Assembly (NCBI RefSeq): GCF_030814135.1
Contig: NZ_JAUSUQ010000004.1
Location: 186,001-250,000 of the forward strand
Source of the DNA: Caldalkalibacillus uzonensis
Lineage (GTDB): Bacteria; Bacillota; Bacilli; Caldalkalibacillales; Caldalkalibacillaceae
DNA: 64,000 bases
Reading direction: 5' to 3'
The first letter of the stretch is position 1, and every line of letters starts with the position of its first letter. Positions 16,935 through 54,965 of this stretch are shown piece after piece. A model generated the notes under the pieces. It saw nothing but the letters and a program-made list of their open reading frames with translations, was not told the origin of the DNA and did not search any database. The translations under genes and the position numbers were made by a program.

Positions 16935-18305
16935 ATGAGGAAAGTTCTGATCAGCGTGCTTATCATCGTTCTTATTGCGGCACTGTTCTTACCTTACACC
17001 CAGAACGCTCAAGCTTCCGTAACTACAGAATTAAACCAAGGGCAGAAAAAGGCTCTAGAGAAGCAACTGTTTGCCATCGCCAAGCAAACATATAAATACT
17101 TTGAAACGTTCACAGACCCAGAGACTGGTCTTACTTTGGACAGAATCGACCTGGAAAACGGTACTGTTGTAGAGTATACTCACACTTCACCTACCAACAT
17201 TGGCATGTATTTACTCAGTACCATTTCAGCTGCCGAACTTGGAATCATTTCAGAAGCAGAAGCAAAAGAAAAGATCAAAACAACACTCCAAACCCTAGAA
17301 CAGCAAGATACCTGGAACGGATTATTTTATAACTGGTATTACACAAGTGACGGCTCTCTAAAAACAGATTGGGGGAAATTCATTTCCACTGTAGACAATG
17401 GGTGGTTAACGGCCGCTTTAATTGTAGTTGGGCAAGCCTATCCGGAGCTTCAAGAACTTACAGTCCCCTTGATCAACGCCATGGACTATTCCCATCTATA
17501 TGACCAGCAAGTGGGTCAATTTCACGGTGGATATGATGTGCTTCGTCAAACGCTAACTGAGTTTCATTATGGCATGTTTTATACTGAACCAAGAGTGGCC
17601 AGTTATATAGCTATCGGTAAAGGAGATGTTCCCGTAGAACACTGGTGGCGTATGTATCGAACTCTTCCCAAAGAGTGGGACTGGCAACGCCAAATTCCTC
17701 AAGGATATTTTGAATATTATGATGGAGTAGAGGTCTTTCAAGGACATTATGAGTACAAAGGCGTTAAATTCGTCCCCAGCTGGGGAGGCAGCATGTTCGA
17801 AGCACTTATGCCAAGTCTCGTGCTTAAGGAGAACGAACTAGGCACAAAGGCACTTGGTATAAATAACAAACGCCATGTCCAGTTGCAAATTGCCTATGCT
17901 GAAGAAAAAGGATACCCTGCCTGGGGGTTTTCTCCTGCTGCAATACCAAATGGATATTCTGAGTTTGGCGTAGCCGAGCTGGGAACTTGGGGGTACGATG
18001 ACAAAGCTACTGTGACGCCCCACGCCACTTTCCTGGCCTTAGACCATGCCCCAGATAAAGTTTGGGAAAATATTAAATACTTGAGATCATTGAATGCCTA
18101 CGGTCCTTTTGGATTCTATGACTCAGTGAATATGGAGACCGGTGTCGTTGCAAAAACATACCTTGCCCTAGATCAGGGTATGACCATTGTTGCTATTGCT
18201 AACTACCTGTTGGATGGAGTCATACGCAACTATTTCCATCAAGACTCTATTGGTAAAATCCCTGAACACCTCTTATATCGCGAGAGATTTTCTATCCTCG
18301 ACTAA
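16935..18305 (+). CDS. Secreted PF10091-type glycoside hydrolase (GH144/GH189 relative)
   Basis: A 456-residue exported (alpha/alpha)6-barrel protein. ATG 16935 follows GGGAGGGAATACAT. The signal peptide is about residues 1-27, with likely cleavage after NAQA. The first half (YKYFETFTDPETGLTLDRI; STVDNGWLTAALIV) resembles DUF3131/glycoamylase proteins. The second half (PSWGGSMFEALMPSL; TPHATFLALDHAP; GPFGFYDSVN; QGMTIVAIANYLLDG; FHQDS) matches the glycoamylase region of cyclic beta-1,2-glucan synthases and GH144 beta-1,2-glucanases. It is probably an endo-acting enzyme releasing oligosaccharides for the divergent importer operon, with which it shares LacI operators. Beta-1,2-glucan as substrate is inference. 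Confidence 0.72.
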   Translation: MRKVLISVLIIVLIAALFLPYTQNAQASVTTELNQGQKKALEKQLFAIAKQTYKYFETFTDPETGLTLDRIDLENGTVVEYTHTSPTNIGMYLLSTISAAELGIISEAEAKEKIKTTLQTLEQQDTWNGLFYNWYYTSDGSLKTDWGKFISTVDNGWLTAALIVVGQAYPELQELTVPLINAMDYSHLYDQQVGQFHGGYDVLRQTLTEFHYGMFYTEPRVASYIAIGKGDVPVEHWWRMYRTLPKEWDWQRQIPQGYFEYYDGVEVFQGHYEYKGVKFVPSWGGSMFEALMPSLVLKENELGTKALGINNKRHVQLQIAYAEEKGYPAWGFSPAAIPNGYSEFGVAELGTWGYDDKATVTPHATFLALDHAPDKVWENIKYLRSLNAYGPFGFYDSVNMETGVVAKTYLALDQGMTIVAIANYLLDGVIRNYFHQDSIGKIPEHLLYRERFSILD

Positions 18306-19662: not shown

Positions 19663-22600
19663 CTAACTTTTAATCACAAAATCTATCATAAACGTTTTAA
19701 TCTCATAAGGGTTAATTGTAAATTCCAACGCTTGGCCTTGTTTCTTTTCACCACAAGGATTTTCCATTAAATCAACTTCCTGCCATGAGAGAATAGGGAG
19801 ATCACTGGTCAGGCATACTTTACCTCTCCACCCTGTATATTCGTGAAGACGCAAAATAAGTTTGTTATGGTCTTCTGCTTTTTTGACTGCATCGATCATG
19901 ATGTTTGTAACCGATGATCTGAACATAGACATCATATTCTTTTCCGCTTTACCCTTAGCGAATGTTAAAGGATTATTCAGATGCCATGCGTGCTGAACAG
20001 TCTGCCCTTCATACCAGTTTCCTTCATGAGGGAACAAGGCATAGGTAAACAGGTGTTCACCTTGGTCCTGCTGAGGATCAGGATAGGTGGCCGACTTAAT
20101 CAATGTCAAACGCAGTACATTATCCTTAACATCATGTCCATATTTACAATCATTCAACAAACTCACACCATACCCATTTTCTGACAAATCCACCCATTGA
20201 TGGCCTACTGTCTCAAAACGGGCCATATCCCAACTGGTATTCCAATGTGTCGGCCGCTTCACATTTCCAAATTGAATATCATAGGTAGCTTCCGTGGCCC
20301 TTATATTTACCGGAAAAGCCACTTTCAATAGTTTTTCCTGTTCGTGCCAATCTACCTTTGTAGCAAAATCAATCCGCTTATGATCAGCATAAACGATCAT
20401 GTCTTGACTGATGGTGGATTCCATGTATTGCCATTCAAACCGGATGACAGCAGCCAACGGGCCCACAGCTTTCAATTTTACTGTTTTCAATTCACAAACT
20501 TCTTCGACTTTCTCCTGGTAGTAAAGGTCAATATCCCATGCGTCATACCGCAGTGGTTTATCCTCAAATACCTGAAGTAAATTTCCTTTTGATTGGGGTG
20601 CTAATACATCCCTTTCGGCCTCCACATCATATATCCGAACTAGTTGGCCTTTATCGTTCCATTCAATCTCATAATAAGGGGTTTTTATGCCAGATAAAGA
20701 ATACTCAAATGGCACAGGCTCTTGTTGATGTTTATTTGGCTCATCTGGGATAAACCGAATGGATGTATAGCCAAGAGGTGGGAGATTGGTCACTTTGACC
20801 CACCATTCCCCATCTATCAGTTGAGAGGTTAGTGAATTGCCGTCCATATCATACCATTTCCCACTTAACAAATCATCTCCTGCCGGTATCCGTACGATAT
20901 CATCCCGTTGCCAGGAAGAGGAATTAAAGATTGTAAATGCGTGAGCTTCACGATCAGATTGGATCAATAAGTTTGCGGCCTTTTTCCAGCATCCTTGACC
21001 AATCTGCTGTGCTTGGTCATATTCTTCCCGGCTATCTTCATAAACTTCAGCAATGGAAGAGCCGGGAATAATATCATGAAACTGATTTCGTAAAATAATT
21101 TTCCATCCTTCATTTAGTTGTTGTTGAGGGTAAGTATCCCAGCCTTTTTTTATGCTGGCCAAAGCGCTTAACCACTCTGTTTCTCTATATAACAGTTCCA
21201 GCTTACGATTCATCCGTTTATTATAAGCCTGACTGGTATAGGTGCCACGATGATATTCCAGGTATAATTCTCCGTCCCAGGTATGCACATATTGGTCTGT
21301 CTTTTCCACTCTATCGTGCAATCGTTCGAAATATTGATCCACCCGCCCTGTCTTTACATGCGGCATTCCAGGACACCTGTCCAATCTCCGGCGCATTTCC
21401 AGCATTTCACGGTTAACACCCCCTCCGCCATCCCCATAGCCATACGAAACTAATAACTCCTGATTTATATGCTTATCTTGGTAAGCATCCCACGCACCTT
21501 TGATGGTGTCTGCTCTTATTTCCCCATTGTAGGTATATAACCACCCTTCCGTATTGGGTTTGGGTGTCGTAATAAAATGGGTTAAAATTTCGCTTCCATC
21601 AATCCCCCGCCATATAAATGTATCATGTGGCATGCGATTATATTGATTCCAACTAATTTTAGTCGTCATAAATGTCTTAATACCTGATTTTTTGAGAATT
21701 TGCGGTAATGCCCAACTATATCCAAACACATCAGGCAGCCAAAGATATTTACATTTTTTACCGAATTCCTGTTCAATAAAGCGGGAACCTATTAAAATTT
21801 GCCTCACTAACGATTCTCCGGACGGAATGTTACAATCCGCTTCAAGCCACATCCCACCGTCGACTTCCCAACGTCCTTCCCGAATCTGCTGACATATCTG
21901 TTGATAGATCTCTGGATAATCTCGTTTTAAATAATCATACAATTGAGGTTGTGTTTGAAGGAAAATGTATTCTGAATATTTTTCCATTAAACGCAAAACA
22001 GTCAAAAATGATCGCGCTGCTTTTTCTCGGGTATGCTTTAAACGCCATAACCAGGCCACATCGATATGGGTATGGCCAATACACCAAATAACAATCGGGG
22101 AACGTTTTTCTAATTCATTAAGTTCATTGTTAAGATATTGCCTGGCTTGTTCAACGGAACGATAAAACTGAACAGAACCCGGACTTGACCAGTTAATTTT
22201 CTTAAATGCATTATCCACCAACCGGAGTAATTGATGTCTTTCAGGCGCTGATGAATCTAACACATTCACAGTGTCCAGAATTGCCTTACTGGTAAAGTAA
22301 AGATCATCCGCTGCTTCGTTTAACCACGCGATTTCAGCCTGTCTGATTCTATGCTCTTGAGCCTCAGGTTGTCCCCCTCCTTCTAACCCGGACCATAATC
22401 GGAACATCAAAGACACTTTTGTTCCGACAAGCGTATTGGAGAGGAAAACCTCTTTATGGTTAGAATCAACACCTTGATAGGGTTCGTTATTGACATACAG
22501 CATCGACTCGAATCCCGAGTTATTCCCACTACCGGTTTTCCCAAAATCAAAAAGACCTACAACCGTTTTATCCTGCCATTTCCTAGGAATCTCCACTTCC

Positions 22601-22806
22601 GCCGCAATCCAAACATACAGATCACGCCCTGTCCAATAGTCTCCTATTTTAATTTGATCCCATCTTCCGGACTGCGGAGGACGAGTTCCAACACCCCCCT
22701 CCTTATCAGTCTGCATCTTAAGTGACTTAATTGTGATACGATCACAATAACGATATTGACTCATTTCCTCTATTCTGTTTCTCAACTTTTCTTCAGTCCA
22801 AAACAT
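19663..22806 (-). CDS. GH38 alpha-mannosidase
   Basis: A 1047-residue cytoplasmic zinc-dependent retaining alpha-mannosidase. ATG 22806 is chosen because GGGAGGT lies just upstream; GTG 22821 overlaps it. An N-terminal lectin-like region of about 230 residues precedes the GH38 barrel. The barrel has zinc ligands H247 and D249 in GHTHIDVAWLW and nucleophile D359 in LWLPDVFGYSWALP. FHDIIPGSSIAEVYEDSREEY (about residue 600) marks the middle helical domain, and C-terminal beta domains follow. The length fits the class of bacterial and lysosomal alpha-mannosidases of about 1000 residues. With ManA and a ROK kinase beside it, the pathway is alpha-mannoside to mannose, mannose 6-phosphate and fructose 6-phosphate. 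Confidence 0.95.
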   Translation of the reverse strand: MFWTEEKLRNRIEEMSQYRYCDRITIKSLKMQTDKEGGVGTRPPQSGRWDQIKIGDYWTGRDLYVWIAAEVEIPRKWQDKTVVGLFDFGKTGSGNNSGFESMLYVNNEPYQGVDSNHKEVFLSNTLVGTKVSLMFRLWSGLEGGGQPEAQEHRIRQAEIAWLNEAADDLYFTSKAILDTVNVLDSSAPERHQLLRLVDNAFKKINWSSPGSVQFYRSVEQARQYLNNELNELEKRSPIVIWCIGHTHIDVAWLWRLKHTREKAARSFLTVLRLMEKYSEYIFLQTQPQLYDYLKRDYPEIYQQICQQIREGRWEVDGGMWLEADCNIPSGESLVRQILIGSRFIEQEFGKKCKYLWLPDVFGYSWALPQILKKSGIKTFMTTKISWNQYNRMPHDTFIWRGIDGSEILTHFITTPKPNTEGWLYTYNGEIRADTIKGAWDAYQDKHINQELLVSYGYGDGGGGVNREMLEMRRRLDRCPGMPHVKTGRVDQYFERLHDRVEKTDQYVHTWDGELYLEYHRGTYTSQAYNKRMNRKLELLYRETEWLSALASIKKGWDTYPQQQLNEGWKIILRNQFHDIIPGSSIAEVYEDSREEYDQAQQIGQGCWKKAANLLIQSDREAHAFTIFNSSSWQRDDIVRIPAGDDLLSGKWYDMDGNSLTSQLIDGEWWVKVTNLPPLGYTSIRFIPDEPNKHQQEPVPFEYSLSGIKTPYYEIEWNDKGQLVRIYDVEAERDVLAPQSKGNLLQVFEDKPLRYDAWDIDLYYQEKVEEVCELKTVKLKAVGPLAAVIRFEWQYMESTISQDMIVYADHKRIDFATKVDWHEQEKLLKVAFPVNIRATEATYDIQFGNVKRPTHWNTSWDMARFETVGHQWVDLSENGYGVSLLNDCKYGHDVKDNVLRLTLIKSATYPDPQQDQGEHLFTYALFPHEGNWYEGQTVQHAWHLNNPLTFAKGKAEKNMMSMFRSSVTNIMIDAVKKAEDHNKLILRLHEYTGWRGKVCLTSDLPILSWQEVDLMENPCGEKKQGQALEFTINPYEIKTFMIDFVIKS

Positions 22807-22838
22807 GTGCCAACCTCCCACTCAAACTAAAATAGCAT

Positions 22839-23816
22839 TTAATAAAATGCCCTGATGAGAGTGAAACGTTTGGTTGTTTTAAGGCGATATGCAGATAACT
22901 GAGCCGGTACCAACACTGTATCAGTCCGTTTTAATGGCATCGTCATATCGCCCGTTTCTAAGTTCCCTTCTCCATCTACCACAATCAGAATATCCGGATT
23001 GCTTGTTTTTCCTGTTGTCAGGGTATATTCTCCTGCTGTCAGTTCTATCTTTTCCATTGTAAAATAGGAGCAGCTCACCAAACGGTGGTGAGTGATGCGC
23101 TCATCAACAAACACGGTCTTAATTTCAACCTGGCCGCTTTCCCTGTGTACATCCTGTCCATATTGCATCACATCAGCTGCTTTGTCTACATGCAGTGTTC
23201 GGCCCCGCCCTTGCTCATCAACACGGTCCCAATCATATACTCGATAAGTGATATCAGATGTTTGTTGTATTTCCAATACAATCGTTCCTCCCAATAAAGC
23301 GTGAAGTGTTCTGGAAGGAACAAATACGACATCACCCTTTTTTATGGGTTTATAGTTGAGATACTTGTGCACCTGCTGTTCTCGAATGGCTTGAAAGTAC
23401 GCCTCGCGATCCGGAAATGTATGACCGTAAATCACTTTTCCGTCAGGCTTGGTGTGAAGAATATACCAAGCTTCAGTTTTGCCATAATCTCCTTCCACTC
23501 TTTGGGCATACGTATCATCGGGATGAATCTGTACAGACAAGTCGCTGGTTGCTTCCAAAAATTTGATCAACAAAGGGAACCGTGGTTGTGGTGACTGCCC
23601 AAGATAGGCTTCCGGTGCCATGTCTATTAATTCCTGTAGCGTCTTACCAACCAAGGGACCATCACTAACGACACTTAAGCCATGGGGATGACCGGAAAGC
23701 ACCCAATACTCCCCAATTGGGTGCTTATCCTTGACACCGAACCATTCTTTTAACTGATGGCCGCCCCAAATCCGTTCTTGAGGAATGGGCTTAAATTTTA
23801 CAGGATATATTTTCAT
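22839..23816 (-). CDS. manA: Mannose-6-phosphate isomerase, class I
   Basis: A 325-residue zinc cupin enzyme interconverting mannose 6-phosphate and fructose 6-phosphate. The short Bacillus-type form is recognised by RIWGGHQLKEWFG at the N-terminus, the metal-binding QIHPDD and KTEAWYIL motifs, and SRTLHALLGG. The start at 23816 overlaps the stop of the preceding ROK kinase by 4 bases, so the two are translationally coupled. It is followed by GH38 after 32 bases. Its position makes mannose the released sugar of this locus. Confidence 0.93.
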   Translation of the reverse strand: MKIYPVKFKPIPQERIWGGHQLKEWFGVKDKHPIGEYWVLSGHPHGLSVVSDGPLVGKTLQELIDMAPEAYLGQSPQPRFPLLIKFLEATSDLSVQIHPDDTYAQRVEGDYGKTEAWYILHTKPDGKVIYGHTFPDREAYFQAIREQQVHKYLNYKPIKKGDVVFVPSRTLHALLGGTIVLEIQQTSDITYRVYDWDRVDEQGRGRTLHVDKAADVMQYGQDVHRESGQVEIKTVFVDERITHHRLVSCSYFTMEKIELTAGEYTLTTGKTSNPDILIVVDGEGNLETGDMTMPLKRTDTVLVPAQLSAYRLKTTKRFTLIRAFY

Positions 23817-24742
23817 ACCGGTTCTTCCTCTCTATGGTGAAAAATTAACGCCGCTGCTCCAATCAAGCCAACGTGCTGCTTCAACTGAGCCGGCACAATT
23901 TCTGTTTTTCGTCCGGAAGGGTTTAAGGCATAACGGTGCACATAATTCCGCACCGCATCGAACAATGGCTGTCCTGCTTGTGATACTCCTCCGCCAATCA
24001 CGATTTTTTCAGGATCAAAGAGGTTAATTAAATTGACACAGCCCATACCTATATATGTGAAAACCTGATCGATGAGTGGCACTATCTGCTCATGACCTTG
24101 CCTGTAAAGCACAAAGACATCTTCCGCCGTTAAATCACGGTTCATCACTTCTGATGCCATCCGTGAAATGGCTGTTCCTGAAGCTAACCATTCCAGACAT
24201 CCACGTTGCCCGCAACGACATATGCCTTGTGTTGGATCAATGACCATATGTCCAACTTCTCCGGCATTCCCCCGTGCTCCGGTCACCAAACGTCCATGAA
24301 GAAACAGTCCTGCCCCTATTCCTGTGCTTATAGTCAAGTATATAAAATGTTCACTGTCTTGGGCTGCTCCTATCCATTTTTCTGCCAACGCAGCTGCATT
24401 GGCATCATTTTCAAGGATCACTGGTGTTGAAAGCCTCTCTTGTAAAAGATTCACTATAGGAATATCCTTCCATTTAGGCAAATTGGGTGGGCACGTAATC
24501 CTCCCTTGTCTTGCCTCCAACGGCCCTGGAGCACAAACGCCTATCCCCAAAATATCTTTTGGGGAATAATCTCCTTCTGTAAGCAACTCTTTAATAATAT
24601 CCTCTATCTCATTGATCACAGCCATAGGGGAAGCTGTCGTATCGGTGGGTATCATCTGATATGGTCCTACCTGACCATATGCATCTACAATCCCGGTTGC
24701 GATCTTTGTTCCCCCAATATCAATCCCTATTGCATGTTTCAT
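23813..24742 (-). CDS. ROK-family sugar kinase (probably mannokinase/glucokinase)
   Basis: A 309-residue ATP-dependent hexose kinase. ATG 24742 follows GGGAGAGAAACAT. It shows the ROK landmarks IGIDIGGTKIATGIVD, LENDANAAALAEKW, TISTGIGAG, GHMVIDP and the zinc site CRCGQRGCLEWLASGT. It overlaps manA by 4 bases, which suggests that its product mannose 6-phosphate is handed to ManA. Specificity for mannose is inferred from this coupling; ROK kinases are often broad. A second, frameshifted ROK kinase ends the same locus. Confidence 0.9.
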   Translation of the reverse strand: MKHAIGIDIGGTKIATGIVDAYGQVGPYQMIPTDTTASPMAVINEIEDIIKELLTEGDYSPKDILGIGVCAPGPLEARQGRITCPPNLPKWKDIPIVNLLQERLSTPVILENDANAAALAEKWIGAAQDSEHFIYLTISTGIGAGLFLHGRLVTGARGNAGEVGHMVIDPTQGICRCGQRGCLEWLASGTAISRMASEVMNRDLTAEDVFVLYRQGHEQIVPLIDQVFTYIGMGCVNLINLFDPEKIVIGGGVSQAGQPLFDAVRNYVHRYALNPSGRKTEIVPAQLKQHVGLIGAAALIFHHREEEPV

Positions 24743-24789: not shown

Positions 24790-26853
24790 TTAGCTTAATA
24801 AAACATACCCAATAAAAGCGCCGGGCCAGGAAAACCAGTGGCGTGAAGTGACATGTCCCTCATGCTCATCTACGGCCTCTGAGAACATACCGTCCCATTG
24901 TACTATAGTACAAAGCTTTTTCAACACCTTCTCTTCCCGCTCCTTATTTTTGATAAGGCGGGCGAAAAGCAACTCCTGGGCATCCCCAAGAGGCCAGGGA
25001 TGTGGTGTGTGTACGGAGCCCAAACCAGCATATTGGCCGGTATAATATCCGCCGTGATTGTCCTTACTGAAAGCAAAATTCATCGTGTTAAGCCAAGTCC
25101 GGTCGTCGGCTGTACAAAACCCCCACATAGGAGCTAAAACGGTGGGTAAATCGTTGGCATCATGATAAAACTGATAACGTCCGTTTAAATCTGTCAAATA
25201 GGCAAAAAGGGTTTTGTCCCCATGTTGCGTCTTAAAACTGTGCCAACAATCCTTCCAAACCCGCTCAGCCCACTCAGCCAAATTCCACTCACAAAACTTA
25301 AACTCATGGTTAAGGCGGGCCAGCTGCTCAAACGTGTACCATAGCAACACTTGGCTGGAAAAATGATAGGGATAATCTACCTTATCATCAGCCGGTGTCT
25401 CTCCTGTTTTAAACAACCACTGCTCACTGGCTTTACATTCCAGCAACATCTGTAAAACAGCTTTAATCTTGGGCCCAACCCGTTCAACCACATTGCGGTC
25501 ACCATAGGTGAAATAAAAGTCGCACAGCTCCAAAAGAGGATAACATTGCTGGTCTAACTGGAAGACGTGGTCCTTGCAATAGCCATTGGTTAAATAAGCC
25601 CTGCCCCAGTATCCTTGTGGGCGTTCAGCCATCTCAAACATCCACAATAAATGACCTTTAATTGTGTCTCGGATGTGATCTCTTAAAATAGTGCTTTTTG
25701 CCCCTGGATACAGCTTTTCTATCTGCCGATCTGCTGCTAACAAAAAGGAGAGCATATAATATGCATCACGATTCCACGATAAGGGCAACAGCTGATGATC
25801 AGTCATAATACAATGATGCTCGGCAGAAACCGGTACCTTGCAACAACCTAAAATATAGGCCAAGTTGCGCTTGATGATCAAGTCTGTCACATGAGCGGGT
25901 AAAGACGGTTTCTGTGACCCTGAACTTGGTTGATCGCGCCCTTCTGCCAAAATTTTCTCTGCATAGTTGTTAATCAGCGTATTAAGGCGGTCCAGCTCCT
26001 CAGTCAAACAGGCCACTCTTCTCGCTTCCCATTCAGCACCGGATACTGTCGTAATATTGTCACTGTCGCTGGTATCCATTAGGGTATACAAGACTTGAAT
26101 CACTGCTTCTTCCTCAGGCTGCAAGACCAACTCGTGGAAACTCGTATATTCCACAGGTTGCCCAGATTCCCCCTTGCCGGTTTTAAGTGTCAAGGGACAC
26201 TGATTAAGATAAGCCCATATATATGCCCTGGCCTGTAGGTTAGGGTTGAACAGTTGCAACTGCCCTCCCGCTGCCGTCCATATATTTTCCACCGGTGGGA
26301 TGGGAATAGGACCTCCTTCGGTAAGCTGCCCATAACTGCATCGATTTAAGCTCAACTTACCTCCTACAGTGAAGGGCAAGACAACCTTTTCCGCTCCCTT
26401 GTTGTATACTTTCAATGTGTGTACAATAGAGGGCTGCTGAGCTATCTCCACAACTGAGAAATATGAGCAATAGTGTAAATGACCACTCCTATAAGAGATT
26501 AATACTTGCTCTCCATCAACAATATATATCTGTTTGAACACATTCGGATCACCAACCTCAACGCCAAATCCGCCGTCAGCACCATGCTTCTCTGCCAAAT
26601 CGACCAATGTTCGGCGATATTGCCGCACAAAAACACTGTCGTACCACTTATCATCAGGGAATTGAGCCAGTGGGGTTAAGGTAATAAAGCCATGCTTTTT
26701 ATGCGGTGCATTGATGGAACTAATCCGACCATTCATGCCAATGCTGACTGTGATGCGGCCATTACCAATATCAAGGGGTTTCTTATTGGGTACATTGAGT
26801 ACCGGAATCAGTTCCGGCGCTGACTTTTCCTTGTTTTGGTCACATTCTCTCAC
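24790..26853 (-). CDS. GH125-like (alpha/alpha)6 glycoside hydrolase with extra N-terminal domain
   Basis: A 687-residue protein without signal peptide. GTG 26853 behind AGGGTG is favoured; GTG 26862 is also open. About residues 30-280 look like a beta-sandwich domain. The C-terminal 380 residues follow the layout of GH125 exo-alpha-1,6-mannosidases: LPLSWNRDAYYML, FQLDQQCYPLLELCDF, FYHDANDLPTVLAPMWGFC, then GQYAGLGSVHTPHPWPLGDAQ. GH125 proteins are usually about 430 residues, so this is a divergent, enlarged relative, and catalytic residues are not assigned with certainty. It lies between the amidase and the ROK kinase in an alpha-mannoside operon, which supports a mannosidase role. Confidence 0.6.
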   Translation of the reverse strand: MRECDQNKEKSAPELIPVLNVPNKKPLDIGNGRITVSIGMNGRISSINAPHKKHGFITLTPLAQFPDDKWYDSVFVRQYRRTLVDLAEKHGADGGFGVEVGDPNVFKQIYIVDGEQVLISYRSGHLHYCSYFSVVEIAQQPSIVHTLKVYNKGAEKVVLPFTVGGKLSLNRCSYGQLTEGGPIPIPPVENIWTAAGGQLQLFNPNLQARAYIWAYLNQCPLTLKTGKGESGQPVEYTSFHELVLQPEEEAVIQVLYTLMDTSDSDNITTVSGAEWEARRVACLTEELDRLNTLINNYAEKILAEGRDQPSSGSQKPSLPAHVTDLIIKRNLAYILGCCKVPVSAEHHCIMTDHQLLPLSWNRDAYYMLSFLLAADRQIEKLYPGAKSTILRDHIRDTIKGHLLWMFEMAERPQGYWGRAYLTNGYCKDHVFQLDQQCYPLLELCDFYFTYGDRNVVERVGPKIKAVLQMLLECKASEQWLFKTGETPADDKVDYPYHFSSQVLLWYTFEQLARLNHEFKFCEWNLAEWAERVWKDCWHSFKTQHGDKTLFAYLTDLNGRYQFYHDANDLPTVLAPMWGFCTADDRTWLNTMNFAFSKDNHGGYYTGQYAGLGSVHTPHPWPLGDAQELLFARLIKNKEREEKVLKKLCTIVQWDGMFSEAVDEHEGHVTSRHWFSWPGAFIGYVLLS

Positions 26854-26934
26854 TGATAACACCCTATTCTGTCAATTTTTTAGAAATACCATTATCCTAA
26901 CGATGGATTAACGTTCTTACCCACTGTTTCAAAT

Positions 26935-27744
26935 TTACAATCCCCATTTCTTATACAACTCCGGTCTGCGGCTGCGTAAGACAGGCTCTTGCTGTCTTTC
27001 TGTAAGAATTTGAGAAAGGTCAATTGCTGTAACGAGGACTTCCTCCCCATCACCTGCTTGAGCAAGCACTTCTCCCCGCGGATTAACCACCATACTGTGC
27101 CCACAATAAGTTATATTTTGCTCCGTTCCCACTCTGTTAACGGCGACGGTAAACAATTGATTGTCCTGCGCCCGGGCACGGGTCCGCAAATGAAGAAGAT
27201 ATTCATAATTTTTAGGTACTGCAGAGGGAATGACAATCAACTGTGCACCTTGCAAAGCCAAAATCCTGAATATCTCCCCGAAAGCGTGATCGTAGCAAGT
27301 TGCGGTGCCTAACCTGATACCCAGAACATCAAAAACCGGAAAAGTGGACCCGCTTCTGAAAAATTGATGCTCCGTAGGATAGAGATGAACTTTGCGATAC
27401 TTACCGATATATTCGCCTTTTCCATTAAGAACAAAGGTGGTGTCATAAAGAACGCCTTCTTGCAATTCATCCCGCTCAACAATATTGGCCACCACTGCTG
27501 TCTCCCATTCCAAGGCTTTTTGCGCCAACCGTTCTGTCGTCGGTCCTGGGATTGTCTCTGCCAATTCGTAAAAATCCTTACTGATTAATTCTAAATGATA
27601 ACCGGTTGTAAATAATTCAGGGTAACACACGAGATCCACTTCGGCACCTACTTGGTCGAAATAACGCTCTGCTTTGCTCAGGTTACTCTCTTTGTCTTTT
27701 AATGTACAATCCATCTGTACAACACCAATTGTTAATTGGGACAT
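26935..27744 (-). CDS. Nitrilase-superfamily carbon-nitrogen hydrolase
   Basis: A 269-residue amidase of the CN-hydrolase family. ATG 27744 follows GGGAGGTGGAATTA; ATG 27762 lies before that site. The catalytic triad is E43 (CYPELFTTGYHL), K118 (GKYRKVHLYP) and C150 (GTATCYDHAF), so it should be active on a small amide or carbamoyl compound. The sequence does not tell the substrate. It sits inside the alpha-mannoside operon, 36 bases after the permease stop and before the GH125-like gene. This is an unusual place and suggests that the imported mannoside carries an amide, or that a general omega-amidase was recruited. Confidence 0.85.
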   Translation of the reverse strand: MSQLTIGVVQMDCTLKDKESNLSKAERYFDQVGAEVDLVCYPELFTTGYHLELISKDFYELAETIPGPTTERLAQKALEWETAVVANIVERDELQEGVLYDTTFVLNGKGEYIGKYRKVHLYPTEHQFFRSGSTFPVFDVLGIRLGTATCYDHAFGEIFRILALQGAQLIVIPSAVPKNYEYLLHLRTRARAQDNQLFTVAVNRVGTEQNITYCGHSMVVNPRGEVLAQAGDGEEVLVTAIDLSQILTERQQEPVLRSRRPELYKKWGL

Positions 27745-27780
27745 TAATTCCACCTCCCTCATCTAAGTACTGAAATAACC

Positions 27781-28623
27781 TTATCCCTTAACCGCTCCAC
27801 TGGTTAGCGCACCAACAATAAAACGCTGCAGGAGAATAAACACTAACATAACCGGTAAGATGGCCAGCATACTGGCCGCAGCAAGGTAATGGGTTGTTAT
27901 GGCATCTATTGTAGATTGCAGGTTGACCAATCCGACGGAGACAGGGTATAACTCGTTGTTGTCCAGCAGGATAAACGGAATCACAAATTGGGACCAGCTT
28001 TGAACACCAACCAAAATAGAGGTTGACACAATTCCCGGAACACTCACAGGGAGGATCACCTTAAGCAACGTTTGCAATCGGGTGCAGCCGTCTACAATGG
28101 CTGCTTCGTCTATGGCTTGGGGAATAGTATCGAAAAATCCTTTCAGAAACCATGTGCTAAATGGTAACTGAATAGCCACATAAACCAAAATTAAACTGGC
28201 ATGGGTGTTGATCAAATCAACCTGGACAAAGAAACGATACAATGGAATGGCAATCACCACAGGAGAAATCATTTGAAACATGATCACAGCAAACAAGGAG
28301 ATTTTTTTATATTTAAAGTTAAATCTAGAAAATGCATATGCAGCAGGAATGGCCACGAGCAAAGTAAATAATACCGTTAACAGCACAATTTTGGCCGAAT
28401 TATACAGGTAATTGACAATGTTAGTATTTTGAAATACATGCAAATAGTTAGCAAACTGCGGGTCAGTTGAAAACCAAATTAATGGTGTAGCAAACAGCTC
28501 CTGTACGGATTTCAGAGATAGTGACAACACCCAAAAAATCGGAAACAAAAAGAATAGCAAGACAAATACGTAAGCCAAGTAGATGCCGCTGTTAATCCAA
28601 CGTTCCTTATGATGTTTACTCAT
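27781..28623 (-). CDS. Sugar ABC importer permease (MalG-like)
   Basis: A 280-residue CUT1 permease with six predicted helices. The EAA loop (AIDEAAIVDGCTRLQTLLKVI) lies at about residues 172-192. The first helix YVFVLLFFLFPIFWVLSLSL is followed by the family motif SLKSVQEL. It begins one base after the stop of the other permease, so the two are co-translated. It should carry the mannoside bound by the product of 29599-30918. No ATPase is linked. Confidence 0.9.
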   Translation of the reverse strand: MSKHHKERWINSGIYLAYVFVLLFFLFPIFWVLSLSLKSVQELFATPLIWFSTDPQFANYLHVFQNTNIVNYLYNSAKIVLLTVLFTLLVAIPAAYAFSRFNFKYKKISLFAVIMFQMISPVVIAIPLYRFFVQVDLINTHASLILVYVAIQLPFSTWFLKGFFDTIPQAIDEAAIVDGCTRLQTLLKVILPVSVPGIVSTSILVGVQSWSQFVIPFILLDNNELYPVSVGLVNLQSTIDAITTHYLAAASMLAILPVMLVFILLQRFIVGALTSGAVKG

Positions 28624-28624
28624 C

Positions 28625-29560
28625 TTAAGCCACCACCTGCTTCTTCTCCATGTAGTGGAAGTAGATTATTGTCATCAAGGTGTTGATCGCCAGAAGAACC
28701 ACCGCCGTTGCTGCTCCTTGCCCCAATTCAAATTCACGGAAAATACGGTTGTAGATGCTCAGAGCAATCACCTCTGTGCTTTGCCCCGGACCTCCTCCAG
28801 TCAAAGCCATCACCATATCGAAGGTATTGAACGTATCTACTGTGATAATGATCAGGTTAATCAGTAAGAGAGGGGCTAAAGTGGGAATCACCACATAAAC
28901 TAAGCGCTTAATAGCATTGGCTCCATCAATCATGGCCGCTTCAATTATATCCCTGGGCAACGTTTGCAAGCCAGCGTAAATCATGATCATACTGAATGCG
29001 GTACCCCTCCAAATGTTAGCCAAAGTAACCGAGATTAAAGCAACATTGGGGTCGGATAAGAAAGGCAAACTCCATCCAAAAAAAGAGTGAAGCATATAAT
29101 TGATGACACCAATTTGGGATTCGTTATACAACATACTCCAAATGATTCCTATAATCACCCCTGGAATGGCCCAAGCGGACAAGACAGACGTACGGACCAT
29201 GACTGTGCCAGTTAAACCACGTTTAACTCCCTGATCGATAAGCAAAGCGATGAGACAACCCAGCAACATTTGAAAGAGAACACTAAAGAAAACAAAAAAC
29301 AGAGTAATCAAGATCATACGGGAGAATCCACTTGAGGTAAACAAGGTGAGATATGAACTTAAGGTATAGTCATATTCAGCACTAATTAAGTTGGCATTGG
29401 TAAAGCTGAGGCGAATCATATCCACAATGGGATACAGAAAAACAAAAACTAGTATCATTGCCAAAGGAAATAACCAAGGTACCGGGGAATTCCCCAGCAC
29501 CTTGAAGATAGACACTTTTGCTGACGAAGTCTGTTGATAATCAAGTTTCAGGTTTGTCAT
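28625..29560 (-). CDS. Sugar ABC importer permease (MalF-like)
   Basis: A 311-residue CUT1 permease. A cytoplasmic N-terminus of about 30 residues precedes the helix LFPLAMILVFVFLYPIVDMI and about five more helices. The EAA loop reads DIIEAAMIDGANAIKRLVYV (about residues 208-228), and the family motif ALTGGGPGQSTEVIALSIYN follows near 255-275. It lies 38 bases after the binding-protein gene and forms the channel with the next permease. Confidence 0.9.
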   Translation of the reverse strand: MTNLKLDYQQTSSAKVSIFKVLGNSPVPWLFPLAMILVFVFLYPIVDMIRLSFTNANLISAEYDYTLSSYLTLFTSSGFSRMILITLFFVFFSVLFQMLLGCLIALLIDQGVKRGLTGTVMVRTSVLSAWAIPGVIIGIIWSMLYNESQIGVINYMLHSFFGWSLPFLSDPNVALISVTLANIWRGTAFSMIMIYAGLQTLPRDIIEAAMIDGANAIKRLVYVVIPTLAPLLLINLIIITVDTFNTFDMVMALTGGGPGQSTEVIALSIYNRIFREFELGQGAATAVVLLAINTLMTIIYFHYMEKKQVVA

Positions 29561-29598: not shown

Positions 29599-30918
29599 CT
29601 ATTTAGCCACTGCATTCCAAGCTTCTTCTAGAGCTTCTTCAGGAGACTTGTTTCCGGAGACGATATCTGATACAGCAATCTGTAACTGTGTAGAGATTTC
29701 CGGATAGACTGTGGCTGCTGGTCTCATCCGTGCAAATTCAGCCAAGTGCTCTCTAAAGATATCGGTAAATTCATTTCCTTCATATGCTTCATGTTCATAA
29801 ACCGAATGGCGCGTTGGCAAGTAGCCGCCCAATGTGCACCATGAGGCCATTCCTTCATCGCCGACAAATGTCCGCATCAGAAAATCAAAAGCAAGCTCCT
29901 GTTTAACAGGGTCATCGGTAAATATACCCCAGGCCCAGCCACCTGCCGTCGTTGCTTGTTGACCAGCTTCCCGCTGCGGCAATGGAGCGACGGCCCATTT
30001 AGCCATGTCGTCCTCACTCAGAATTTCAGCCAATTGGTTGACCTGCCAATTTCCACCGATGAACATGGCCACATTTCCGCTTGCCACCTCAGAGTTCAAA
30101 TCCCCTTCCGAACCATAATTGGCTAACCGTTGCGGGCTATACCCTTTTTGCACCATATCGTGCAGGAAGGTCAATACATTTAACATATACTCCCTGTTCT
30201 CACCTGTTCCAAAGGCTGGTTGATCTTGATCATCCACCAAAGAACCACCTTGAGCCCAGAAGAAAGGTAACACAGAGGTGACAATGGTTCCTTCACCACG
30301 TCCTCCCGGAAACAGAAAAGCTTCATAGCCATCAGCTTTTAACTGTTCACTTAGGGCAAACAGCTCATCCCAAGTAGCAGGAGGACTGTCTACCACATCA
30401 GTGCGGTAGTACAACACCCGTGTATCTGTAGTAAATTGAATGCCGTAAATTTGTCCATCAGGACCTCTCATAATGTCTTGAGCAAACGGAAAGAAATCTT
30501 CAATATCCAATCCTGCTTGTTCAAATAGAGGATCCAAAGGTTGTAAATAATCATAAAAACGAGGTAAAATATAAGAATCGATTTGTGCTATAGCTGGCGC
30601 ACGTCCCTGAGCCGCTTGCTCCATCAAGCGTGCCATCGCTTCAGAAATATTGGAAGACAGAACATCCGGCTTAATTTTCACATTACCATGCTCGGCTTCA
30701 AATGCATCAATTTGATTTTGTAAGTATTCCACCCGTTCAGGACCTGGTGATTGTAATGAATATGCCGGGTGCGCCAGCCATTCAATTTCAATTACCTCTC
30801 CCGTTGCTTTTTCATTCTCTTCAACTTCATCTGTCTCTTCTACGGTACCATTGTTACCGCAACCTGCGATCACGACCAGCCCCAACATCAGGGCCAGTAA
30901 CATTTTCCATCTTCGCAT
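29599..30918 (-). CDS. Sugar ABC importer, substrate-binding lipoprotein (mannoside locus)
   Basis: A 439-residue family 1 binding protein. ATG 30918 follows GGGGGAGTATAC. The signal peptide ends in VVIAGCGNN with acylated C20, then an acidic linker to about residue 42. IEIEWLAHPAY opens the mature domain, and QIYGIQFTTDTRVLYYRTDV and SPPATWDELFALSEQL are typical of this superfamily. It is the first transport gene after the ROK repressor. The ligand is presumably an alpha-mannoside oligosaccharide because GH38, ManA and ROK kinases follow in the same operon. Confidence 0.88.
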   Translation of the reverse strand: MRRWKMLLALMLGLVVIAGCGNNGTVEETDEVEENEKATGEVIEIEWLAHPAYSLQSPGPERVEYLQNQIDAFEAEHGNVKIKPDVLSSNISEAMARLMEQAAQGRAPAIAQIDSYILPRFYDYLQPLDPLFEQAGLDIEDFFPFAQDIMRGPDGQIYGIQFTTDTRVLYYRTDVVDSPPATWDELFALSEQLKADGYEAFLFPGGRGEGTIVTSVLPFFWAQGGSLVDDQDQPAFGTGENREYMLNVLTFLHDMVQKGYSPQRLANYGSEGDLNSEVASGNVAMFIGGNWQVNQLAEILSEDDMAKWAVAPLPQREAGQQATTAGGWAWGIFTDDPVKQELAFDFLMRTFVGDEGMASWCTLGGYLPTRHSVYEHEAYEGNEFTDIFREHLAEFARMRPAATVYPEISTQLQIAVSDIVSGNKSPEEALEEAWNAVAK

Positions 30919-31054: not shown

Positions 31055-32260
31055 TTACAAATTGGAGAACAAGGAGAATGTTTCATTAATCACCAGTGCT
31101 GAAGCCCCTAAAACAACACCTTCTTTAAAACCGGACAGCACGACGGGAATGCGTTTCCCTGAAATACCTAGTGCACGAACTCTAAGAGTTGACTGAATGG
31201 CATCGCGCAGAAGTTGCCTGCCCTCACTCAATTTCCCTCCCACAATAACCAACTCCGGTGCTAATAAATTGACAGCATTAGCAATACCAACACCGAGATA
31301 TTGACCTGCTTCCTGTATGGTTTGCTGGGCCAGGTGGGACCCATTACAAGCAGCAGCAACAATATCTTCAAAGTGGATTGTTTCTGGATCGACATCCGCA
31401 ACAAGGGTTGGCTCATCAGGCATAGCCAGTTTCAATTTCTTCCTGAAACGCTCCACCACCTTTGGCAATGAGGAGAAGGTTTCCAAGCACCCGTAATTTC
31501 CGCATGAACATTTTTCTCCATACACATCAATGGTAGAGTGACCAATCTCTCCTGACTCACCAAACAATCCCCGATGTAGCTCCCCATCTATGACAATACC
31601 GCTGCCAATGCCCACATCAGCCATGATATACATAAAATTGTTGACCCCGATTCCCTGGCCGAACCACTTTTCCGCCAGTGCAGCAACATTGGCATCATTG
31701 TCAATGATAACTGGGAATTGCAAAATATCCTGCAGCATAGCTCTTAAAGGGATTTCCTTTTCGTTGTAAAAGTTAGGTGGCGAAATACACCCCTGCTCAT
31801 TTTCATTCAATGGTCCAGGCAAACCCACACCAACACCCAGAATTTTGTGACGATCAACGCTTGTTTCTTGTAAAATAGCCTCTAAAGTTTGATGAATATA
31901 ATCAAGGATACTTGATATTTTTTCTGTGGGCTGGGTTTCTTTCATTCTTAATGAAAGAAAGTTGCCTTCTAAATCGGTTAAAGCAACTTTAATCTTTGAC
32001 CTTCCCAGCTCTACACCAAATGCATAGTAGCATTGATGGTTAAACCCTAATAGGACTGGCCTTCTTCCTCCCTTTGAAACACCCAAACCAACTTCTTTTA
32101 ACACATTTTCCTTTAAAAGTTCTTCAATAATGCGTGTGATTGTCGGTTGGGGAATATCCATCCGCTCAGAAATTTCCACCCTGGAAAGGGGGCCTTCTTC
32201 CCGAATGAGTTTAATCACCCGTTTTGTGTTTATTTCTCTGCTTGATTGAACCGCTTTCAT
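31055..32260 (-). CDS. ROK-family transcriptional repressor (NagC/XylR type)
   Basis: A 401-residue regulator heading the mannoside locus. ATG 32260 follows GAGGAGCAAAAA. Residues about 12-65 form a winged helix-turn-helix (NTKRVIKLIREEGPLSRVEIS, then QPTITRIIEELLKENVL). The rest is a ROK sugar-sensing domain with DNDANVAALAEKWFG, GEIGHSTIDVYG and the zinc motif CSCGNYGCLETFSS. Several kinase landmarks remain, so sugar binding is likely. It is separated from the binding-protein gene by 136 bases and has a good promoter upstream. It probably releases the operon when mannose or a mannoside is present. Confidence 0.9.
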   Translation of the reverse strand: MKAVQSSREINTKRVIKLIREEGPLSRVEISERMDIPQPTITRIIEELLKENVLKEVGLGVSKGGRRPVLLGFNHQCYYAFGVELGRSKIKVALTDLEGNFLSLRMKETQPTEKISSILDYIHQTLEAILQETSVDRHKILGVGVGLPGPLNENEQGCISPPNFYNEKEIPLRAMLQDILQFPVIIDNDANVAALAEKWFGQGIGVNNFMYIMADVGIGSGIVIDGELHRGLFGESGEIGHSTIDVYGEKCSCGNYGCLETFSSLPKVVERFRKKLKLAMPDEPTLVADVDPETIHFEDIVAAACNGSHLAQQTIQEAGQYLGVGIANAVNLLAPELVIVGGKLSEGRQLLRDAIQSTLRVRALGISGKRIPVVLSGFKEGVVLGASALVINETFSLFSNL

Positions 32261-53440: not shown

Positions 53441-54965
53441 TTATACTGCCGTATCCTGCACACCAGTGACCGCGTTTTTTATCATTGCGGCTTCTAAAAT
53501 GGTTTCTTGGGAGGCATCTTGTGCCTTAAGTGTAGCGGTCACCCTGCCCTCACGCATAACCACAATACGATCACTCATCCCGATCACTTCCGGCATTTCT
53601 GAAGAAACAAGAATAATCCCGTAACCTTGGGCTGCCAGATCACTGATGATCTCATATATGGCTGATTTAGCACCAACGTCGACACCCTTGGTTGGTTCAT
53701 CAAGAATAATAATATCCAAGTCAGCAGCCAACAGTTTGGCAAAAACGACTTTTTGCTGGTTTCCCCCTGATAAAGAACTGACTTTATCAAAGATACTATT
53801 AGCTTTAACCTGAAGTTTTTCACTAAGTTTTTTTGGCTACACTGGACTCACTTTTATCCTTTAACCACCCATGTTTAGAAAATTTCCCCAATGTAGATAA
53901 AGTAATGTTTTTATCTAAACCCCAGTCAAGTATCAAACCTTGTTGCTGTCTGTCTTCTGGTAAATAACCAATTCCAAAACCCATGGCCTGCAGCGGATTG
54001 GTGATTTGAATCCTTTTTCCTCTCAAATAGATGGCTCCCCGATCATAAGGGGTAAGGCCAGCAATAGCTTGACAAACTTCACTTCGCCCTGCGCCAACAA
54101 GTCCCGTAATACCCAAAATTTCACCCTGATGCAGTGTAAAAGTTACATCTGCAAAAAAACCTGTCTTACCAAGACCTTTCACCCGCAAAAGCTCTTCTCC
54201 TATTTTGTTTTCCTTTTTAGGGTAAAGTTGAGTGACTTCCCGCCCTACCATGGCAACGATCAACTCTTCCTTAGTAATATCATTAACGCCCCACGACCCA
54301 ATATATTTCCCATCCCTTAAGACAGTCACTTGACTGGCCAGCCTGTACATATCTTCAAATCTATGGGTGATAAAAATCACAGATACTCCTTTATCTCTCA
54401 TCTGTTCTGTAATCCGGTACAACTCTTCACTTTCTCTTGCTGACAGCGCTGCTGTCGGTTCATCCATAATCATAATCTTGGCCTCTGTAGAGAGTGCTTT
54501 GGCAATCTCCACAATTTGTTGCTGGGCAACACTTAACCCGCTCATTTGTGTTTTGGGGTCAATATCAGTTCCCAGTTCACGTAACAATTCTCTTGCCTTT
54601 TCATGCATTTCTTTCCACAGCAATCGCCCTGTCCATTTGTCAATTCTTTCATGCCCCATAAAAATATTTTCAGTTACAGTCAGGTCTGGAAAGCAGGTCA
54701 CATGCTGATAAATGGCTGCAATTCCTAATTTTTGCGCATCTTTAGGATTGTTTATCTCCACCTTTGTCCCATTAAAATAGATTTCTCCCTCGTCAGGAGA
54801 ATGGACTCCAGTAATAATTTTGATAAAAGTGGATTTACCTGCTCCATTCTCCCCCATTAAAGCGTGTATCTCTCCTGGCTTTAGCCGAAAGTGAACATTC
54901 TCTAAAGCTTTTACACCTGGGAATGATTTGCTTATTGATTTCAATTCCAGAACATATTCAGACAT
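53441..54965 (-). pseudogene. rhaT: Rhamnose ABC importer ATPase, one-base frameshift
   Basis: A double-domain sugar ATPase (RbsA class). ATG 54965 follows GGGAGTAGCG. The first domain is complete: Walker A GENGAGKST, signature LSVAQQQIVEIAKAL and Walker B IMIMDEPTAAL. The second domain starts with GLVGAGRSEV. After [11 protein letters not shown] the frame meets TAG at 53823. Removing one A from the A7 tract (T7 at 53828-53834 on +) restores [11 protein letters not shown], the second signature [11 protein letters not shown] and [11 protein letters not shown], up to the stop at 53441. That gives a 507-residue protein of normal length. It is either a real mutation, a sequence error or slippage at A7. 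Confidence 0.88.

Follow-up and report, generated by a model that had tools for sequence, protein, structure and literature searches.

A long two-domain relative of GH125 mannosidases, linked to glucosylglycerate genes in homologous loci, may act on mannosylglucosylglycerate

RESULTS

The GH125L operon

The window, i.e. the whole stretch of 64,000 nucleotides of Caldalkalibacillus uzonensis DNA analysed here, carries on its minus strand an open reading frame at 24790–26853, which the earlier note had read as a gene of 687 aa. This reading stands, as the frame is kept in 24 other contigs, mostly from two phyla, and is thus not a chance ORF. The product, denoted GH125L, is a GH125-related protein with an N-terminal beta-sandwich. 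Two in-frame GTG codons may serve as its start, one at 26853 (687 aa, chosen in the earlier note) and one at 26862 (690 aa, chosen in the ORF list), and the former is preferable due to an AGGG ∼8 nt upstream. Residue numbers refer to the 690-aa reading unless stated, and 3 has to be subtracted for the 687-aa start. By eye GH125L has no signal peptide, and hence it is probably intracellular.

The same-strand order in the window is ROK regulator, solute-binding protein, two permeases, amidase, GH125L, ROK kinase, ManA and GH38, neighbouring genes being at most 136 nt apart and overlapping by up to 4 nt; a second ROK gene then comes after ∼300 nt. The ROK-type transcriptional regulator (31055–32260, minus strand; winged helix and ROK by sequence reading) has a 49% identical counterpart heading the L051 cluster. 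The ABC solute-binding lipoprotein (29599–30918) and the two ABC sugar permeases (28625–29560 and 27781–28623), all on the minus strand, have homologues beside GH125L in L031, L032 and L051, which are 49–57, 60–66 and 61–69% identical, respectively. An ABC ATPase-like gene at 53823–54965 was considered as the missing transporter ATPase and rejected, since it matches monosaccharide-type (RbsA-like) ATPases.

Between permeases and GH125L lies a nitrilase-superfamily amidase (CN_hydrolase, 26935–27762, minus strand; PF00795, 197.2 bits), in which, judging by eye, we take the nitrilase triad of Glu, Lys and Cys to be present. In four Bacillota loci, namely the window, L028:9144–9968, L029:9142–9963 and L034:9145–9969, amidases that are 67–71% identical immediately precede GH125L, and in two of the four a glycerate kinase then follows. 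Downstream of GH125L, the minus strand encodes a ROK family sugar kinase, a proposed mannokinase (23813–24742; PF00480, 268.8 bits), which also adjoins GH125L in L030, L051 and L084; the mannose-6-phosphate isomerase ManA (22839–23816; TIGR00218, 153.2 bits against a cut-off of 116.2), also found at the L030 and L084 loci; and a GH38 alpha-mannosidase (19663–22821; PF01074, 314 bits, with three more GH38 domains), found only in the window among the loci compared. The matches of the GH38 protein and of the amidase both exceed the cut-offs of Pfam. With GH38, ManA, ROK kinase, ABC permeases and binding protein, the operon is of the alpha-mannoside type, as had been proposed. Genes for phosphorylase, synthase, glycerate kinase and MGH1-like hydrolase were all absent from the window's operon. 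A divergently placed gene (16935–18305, plus strand) has a hydrophobic N-terminus and matches PF10091 (putative glucoamylase) and DUF3131.

Family and predicted fold of GH125L

GH125 was the sole Pfam family found in GH125L. Its model PF06824 matched the C-terminal part (residues 485–686) with 65.7 bits against a cut-off of 23.4, this match spanning only model positions 209–411 of 414, and GH125 entries also came first in PDB sequence searches; the kinship to GH125 claimed for the C-terminal part is thereby supported. When a profile of 23 long homologues (L045, L047 and L048 left out) was compared with one of 11 short GH125 proteins of the window's class, hhalign gave 99.4% with an E-value of 6e-22 over 333 columns. 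No Pfam match to PF22422 or PF03200 (GH63/MGH1-like) was seen in GH125L at an E-value of 1 or better.

The AlphaFold2 model of GH125L had a pLDDT of 87.4 and a pTM of 0.90. In the VIA comparison, ranks 1–9 were all entries of GH125-type exo-alpha-1,6-mannosidases (Z 29.8–31.4), the best being CpGH125 (3qt9, Z 31.4, 351 residues aligned, 2.8 Å), followed by the GH15 bacterial glucoamylase 1lf6 (Z 28.1, 509 residues aligned over both domains, 3.8 Å). In the Foldseek order by E-value, GH125-type, GH15 and GH116 entries were mixed at the top. Thus GH125L passes the PF06824 cut-off and has GH125 as its closest (α/α)6 fold. The comparison with other (α/α)6 families, for which the earlier note had called, gave no match that speaks against GH125, as GH125 leads the structural list and the acid and O2-binding residues of GH15 are absent.

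VIA and hhalign place the catalytic (α/α)6 domain at residues 321–690 (24790–25902 with the stop codon, minus strand), preceded by an N-terminal domain of residues 1–320 (25903–26862, minus strand), a beta-sandwich with a linker helix (275–309). Modelled alone by AlphaFold2, the N-domain had a pLDDT of 85.0 and a pTM of 0.85, so that the beta-sandwich suspected in the earlier note is now predicted with good confidence, and the ∼250 extra residues noticed there agree with the 424–452 aa of the short GH125 proteins of the class. The best VIA match of the N-domain was the N-domain of a GH94 laminaribiose phosphorylase (Z 17.0, 236 residues aligned, 3.8 Å), and it resembles the N-domains of GH94, GH65, GH149, GH161, GH63 and GH15 enzymes and also GH95. 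Because the fold is common to all of these, the N-domain is a usual partner of (α/α)6 enzymes rather than a new domain. It contains 22 residues invariant across 23 sequences, including a block at 174–184, which suggests a role of this domain in function.

The tested −1 subsite residues are retained

According to PMC9883506, the −1 subsite residues of CpGH125 include Trp62, Arg64, Asp65, the acid Asp220, Asn302, which contacts O2 of mannose, and the base Glu393; the GH15 enzyme G1d has Glu430 as acid and Arg567 at the O2 position. The counterparts in GH125L, all encoded on the minus strand, are Asp492 (25387–25389) for the general acid, Glu662 (24877–24879) for the general base, Asn570 (25153–25155) for the O2 contact, and the stretch Trp363-Asn-Arg365-Asp366 (25765–25776) for Trp62/Arg64/Asp65. 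By HMMER alignments and hhalign, all six tested CpGH125 residues are identical in 23/23 long homologues; positions 62–65 were placed by hhalign and by the opening stretch of the SpGH125 alignment, which is weak there.

The earlier note had regarded the usual catalytic motifs as altered. The motif wording around the catalytic residues does differ (TPADD for RPSDD, SEAV for HEGF), but these changes do not touch the six residues, and we therefore reject an altered catalytic centre: with acid, base and four other −1 residues identical in every sequence, acidic residues occupy both catalytic positions, which was one of the checks that the earlier note had proposed. Via the CpGH125 alignment, the GH15 signature (Glu as acid, Arg at O2) is replaced in GH125L by Asp492 and Asn570.

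Long forms constitute a separate clade

When one genome per species was scanned, at least 24 GH125L loci were found, in Paenibacillus, Cohnella, Bacillus, Alkalicoccus and Chloroflexota, with one labelled Pleurocapsa; since only two short peptide patterns were used, 24 is a lower bound. Long forms occurred in 2/398 genomes of the window's class and, at an E-value of 1e-30, in 7/199 genomes of the class of genome G414 (Anaerolineae), one of the seven being a fragment.

For the tree, 22 of the 26 GH125L sequences were used, without L043 and L046 (ORF choice) and L047 and L048 (incomplete). These 22 long forms constituted one clade (support 98/99), two paralogues a second (100/99) and the 11 short GH125 proteins a third (100/99), the three being parted by branches of ∼4–6 changes per column, distances of a size that is poorly determined. 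The separate group anticipated in the earlier note is thus seen as a clade of its own on very long branches, comprising Bacillota and Chloroflexota.

The window genome encodes a second long GH125-like protein of 615 aa (L086:7493–9340; G000:C3, ∼313.5 kb), which exceeds the PF06824 cut-off with 86.6 bits and adjoins a GH31 gene, a gene of weak glucoamylase/rhamnosidase ((α/α)6-like) resemblance and its own ABC transporter. Genome G079 has a similar cluster around a protein of 636 aa (L087:4203–6113). This second group resembles GH125L in length (615 and 636 aa) but is the separate paralogue clade of the tree. Moreover, a remnant of 22 residues at L016:1501–1566 (G017:C108:84134–84199), 77% identical to GH125L residues 413–434 in the 687-aa reading, lies just before a ManA-like frame and is probably a decayed GH125L copy. 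Thirteen plasmid records gave partial GH125-like matches, all of them covering less than 80% of the query.

Homologous loci carry glucosylglycerate and glycerate genes

Neighbours were counted by searching 25 fetched loci in a uniform way, i.e. the 24 of the scan and L084, with the window and L203–L205 counted apart; G582, a fragment only, was omitted here and kept among the 7/199. At least one of four glucosylglycerate or glycerate markers was present in 19/25 loci, a link that is new here and was missed by the earlier note. Glucosylglycerate phosphorylase was found in 13 loci (L030, L033, L038, L040–L046, L048, L050 and L084), a GT4 protein resembling mannosylglucosylglycerate (MGG) synthase in seven (L030, L033, L037 and L041–L044), glycerate kinase in five (L028, L030, L033, L034 and L051) and an MGH1-like hydrolase in four (L036, L044, L047 and L050), so that a phosphorylase or an MGH1-like hydrolase stands beside GH125L in 15/25. 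All four markers were absent from six loci (L029, L031, L032, L035, L039 and L049), and because the fetched spans vary in length, a missing marker is less certain than one that was found.

The identity of the phosphorylases was examined by the hallmarks given by Franceus and Desmet (2020, PMC7178133), namely (T/S)ETN at beta-5 and a loop-A Glu. Both were found in 13/13 neighbouring GH13_18 proteins, of which those of L043 and L048 are 5′-truncated at the contig end; the proteins also match structures of glucosylglycerol and sucrose phosphorylases. The GT4 proteins had MGG synthase (NF041101) as the best NCBIfam match, with 230–456 bits over nearly the full model in the proteins scanned, and since the curated cut-off of 640 bits is not reached, they are denoted synthase-like only.

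In L045:9986–13507, GH125L and glucosylglycerate phosphorylase are fused in one frame of 1173 aa. (L045 is labelled Pleurocapsa minor, probably wrongly, as its genome G415 falls in the class of G414, Anaerolineae.) Elsewhere the arrangement varies: the order phosphorylase–synthase–kinase lies upstream of GH125L in L030 and L033, the phosphorylase lies upstream with another transporter in L084, upstream of LacI in L040, L042–L044 and L048, and directly downstream of GH125L in L038 and L046, while L041 has the order GH125L–synthase–phosphorylase and L050 GH125L–MGH1–phosphorylase. Glycerate kinase is directly downstream of GH125L and overlaps it in L028 and L034. That the genes stay linked although their order has changed repeatedly speaks for a route in common. 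In three full-length loci that came to light only with the Anaerolineae sample (L203–L205), no marker adjoined GH125L, and the order binding protein–permeases–ATPase–GH125L was kept.

Two further clusters were observed. In the L084 cluster, a glycerate kinase fragment of 28 residues (G038:C1:3507071–3507154, 25 bits) lies just upstream of the phosphorylase and suggests a lost kinase gene. A second cluster in the Cohnella genome that contains L028 (L207, G398:C59:180000–199000) has LacI, ABC, GDSL hydrolase, MGH1-like hydrolase, glycerate kinase and glucosylglycerate phosphorylase genes, and a synthase-like gene just beyond.

Genome-wide co-occurrence

With a profile built from 10/14 phosphorylases, partly from GH125L loci, phosphorylase matches of at least 600 bits were found in 20/26 GH125L genomes, comprising 15/15 of the L036–L050 group and 5/11 of the Bacillota; six Bacillota GH125L genomes had no match at this threshold. 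The phosphorylase was also found in 10/396 genomes of the Bacilli class lacking GH125L and, at an E-value of 1e-80, in 64/192 such genomes of the Anaerolineae class. Synthase-like matches of at least 150 bits occurred in 15/26 GH125L genomes, 5/11 in Bacillota, and none of the 396 other genomes of the window's class exceeded 31 bits. In G414's class, 80/199 genomes had a synthase-like match at an E-value of 1e-20.

Fisher tests, in which kinship is ignored, gave p = 5e-9 for the synthase (5/11 against 0/396) and p = 1e-5 for the phosphorylase (5/11 against 10/396) in Bacillota, where the 11 genomes had been chosen for having GH125L. For Anaerolineae, again ignoring kinship, the phosphorylase gave p = 6e-4 (7/7 against 64/192), and no association with GH125L was seen for the synthase (3/7 against 77/192, p = 0.59). 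GH125L is missing from most Anaerolineae genomes that carry the synthase or the phosphorylase, and Thermotoga maritima, from the control set, has a synthase match over the cut-off and no PF06824 match. We therefore rejected a universal MGG role of GH125L.

In the window organism, the parts of the proposed route are present and do not share one operon. On the window's contig, a phosphorylase of 601 aa, which has TETN and the loop-A Glu, adjoins a synthase-like gene (456 bits) at C4:298566–301707, ∼86 kb from GH125L, and LacI and an ABC transporter then follow. The genome has one glycerate kinase, on contig C11. As glycerate kinase is common (8/8 genomes searched, 5/14 controls), only its position beside GH125L carries weight.

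DISCUSSION

A proposed role in MGG salvage

From the predicted fold, catalytic set, clade, neighbourhoods and fusion we infer what GH125L does, on which substrate it acts and in which direction the route runs, with decreasing assurance as the claim narrows. GH125L is very probably an alpha-mannosidase of some kind, and its substrate is likely a mannosylated glycerate solute. More specifically, we lean towards an intracellular inverting exo-alpha-mannosidase, from a long two-domain GH125-related branch, acting on such solutes and most likely on MGG.

In this proposal, MGG would be taken up or drawn from the cell's own pool, and GH125L would hydrolyse it with inversion to mannose and glucosylglycerate, with Asp492 as acid and Glu662 as base. 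Mannose would be converted to mannose-6-P and fructose-6-P by ROK kinase and ManA, glucosylglycerate and phosphate to glucose-1-P and glycerate by the phosphorylase, and glycerate to phosphoglycerate by glycerate kinase. A mannosidase is supported by Asn570, which corresponds to Asn302 where a GH15 enzyme has Arg567, and by the five other −1 residues, all in 23/23. An outflow of mannose is indicated by clusters that contain both ROK kinase and ManA (the window, L030 and L084) or just the kinase (L051), and an outflow of glucosylglycerate by the 13 neighbouring phosphorylases, one of them fused. Furthermore, the seven synthase-like neighbours support MGG as the solute, and the five glycerate kinases, overlapping in two loci, support the glycerate step. 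This route has no need of the GH38 enzyme or the nitrilase of the window.

A bolder version, which we regard as improbable, is that GH125L founds a GH family of enzymes for mannosylated glycerate solutes and opens a pathway of MGG salvage that has not been described. Where a nitrilase gene is linked (window, L028, L029 and L034), the amidase would first turn an amide of the solute into the acid, and amidase, mannosidase and glycerate kinase would then act in one route. Mannosylglyceramide of Rhodothermus is an example of such an amide.

Alternative explanations

The alternative that survives best, although we consider it unlikely, is that GH125L is a classical exo-alpha-mannosidase which scavenges mannose from oligosaccharides of alpha-mannan or N-glycans (alpha-1,6 or alpha-1,2) that the cell imports, and that the glucosylglycerate genes are mere neighbours in sugar-uptake islands. 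Scavenging would suit a window operon with GH38, ABC uptake, ROK kinase and ManA and no glycerate gene, the known GH125 enzymes, which are alpha-1,6-mannosidases by their PDB entry titles, and the absence of glycerate markers from 6/25 loci and all three later ones. However, mere neighbourhood is argued against by the in-frame fusion in L045, by a link kept in several gene orders, by the glycerate kinases overlapping GH125L in L028 and L034, and by strong phosphorylase matches in 20 of the 26 GH125L genomes.

It is rather improbable that the natural substrate is mannosylglycerate instead of MGG, in which case one cut would give mannose and glycerate directly. In L051, L028 and L034 a glycerate kinase accompanies GH125L and the locus lacks a phosphorylase, and genomes G421 and G404 have neither a phosphorylase nor a synthase match at the thresholds used; but G398, the genome of L028, carries both elsewhere, and in most of the other loci phosphorylase, fusion and synthase indicate that glucosylglycerate is an intermediate.

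We see very little chance that GH125L is a glucosylglycerate hydrolase or another alpha-glucosidase of GH15/GH63 type, as its GH15-like two-domain architecture might suggest, because GH125 entries outrank GH15, the acid is Asp rather than Glu and the O2 position Asn rather than Arg, and an MGH1-like hydrolase or phosphorylase already adjoins GH125L in 15/25 loci. The least credible is an inverting alpha-mannoside phosphorylase: the N-domain matches are mainly to GH94, GH65, GH149 and GH161 phosphorylases, but this fold is also found in GH63, GH15 and GH95 hydrolases, and the general base expected of a hydrolase, Glu662, is invariant, and GH65 and GH94 phosphorylases are not known to have such a base.

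Comparison with known systems

If the proposed role of GH125L in MGG hydrolysis is true, a mannosidase feeding the phosphorylase would close the cycle of MGG, a rare stress-protecting sugar, whose salvage could then be tested in ordinary Bacillota. The GH125 relatives would extend beyond enzymes that trim N-glycans and mannan, and would include members with the N-domain of the wider (α/α)6 enzymes. MGG synthesis is described in the literature, and according to a 2020 review (PMC7178133) the phosphorylase is the only known possible glucosylglycerate sink in many producing organisms. Among the papers accessible to our search, no enzyme removing mannose from MGG was found, and the accessible part of a 2024 glucosylglycerate review names none.

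MGH1-like hydrolases of mannosylglycerate or glucosylglycerate (PF22422, GH63) are related by the solutes proposed and by being neighbours of GH125L in 4/25 loci, but they are a different family, as GH125L has no PF22422 match at an E-value of 1. The GH15 glucoamylase and glucodextranase (1lf6, 1ug9) share the two-domain architecture, with 509–519 residues aligned, and differ in the Glu acid and, for G1d, Arg567 at O2, where GH125L has Asp and Asn. The closest known system is GH125 itself (CpGH125, 3qt9/5m7i/6rqk; SpGH125, 3qpf), with which GH125L shares the (α/α)6 fold, acid, base and the tested −1 residues. In contrast to the short GH125 proteins, GH125L is ∼250 residues longer and has a beta-sandwich that they lack, its identity to the GH125 structures is 16–18% in structural alignment, and its gene context indicates glycerate glycosides.
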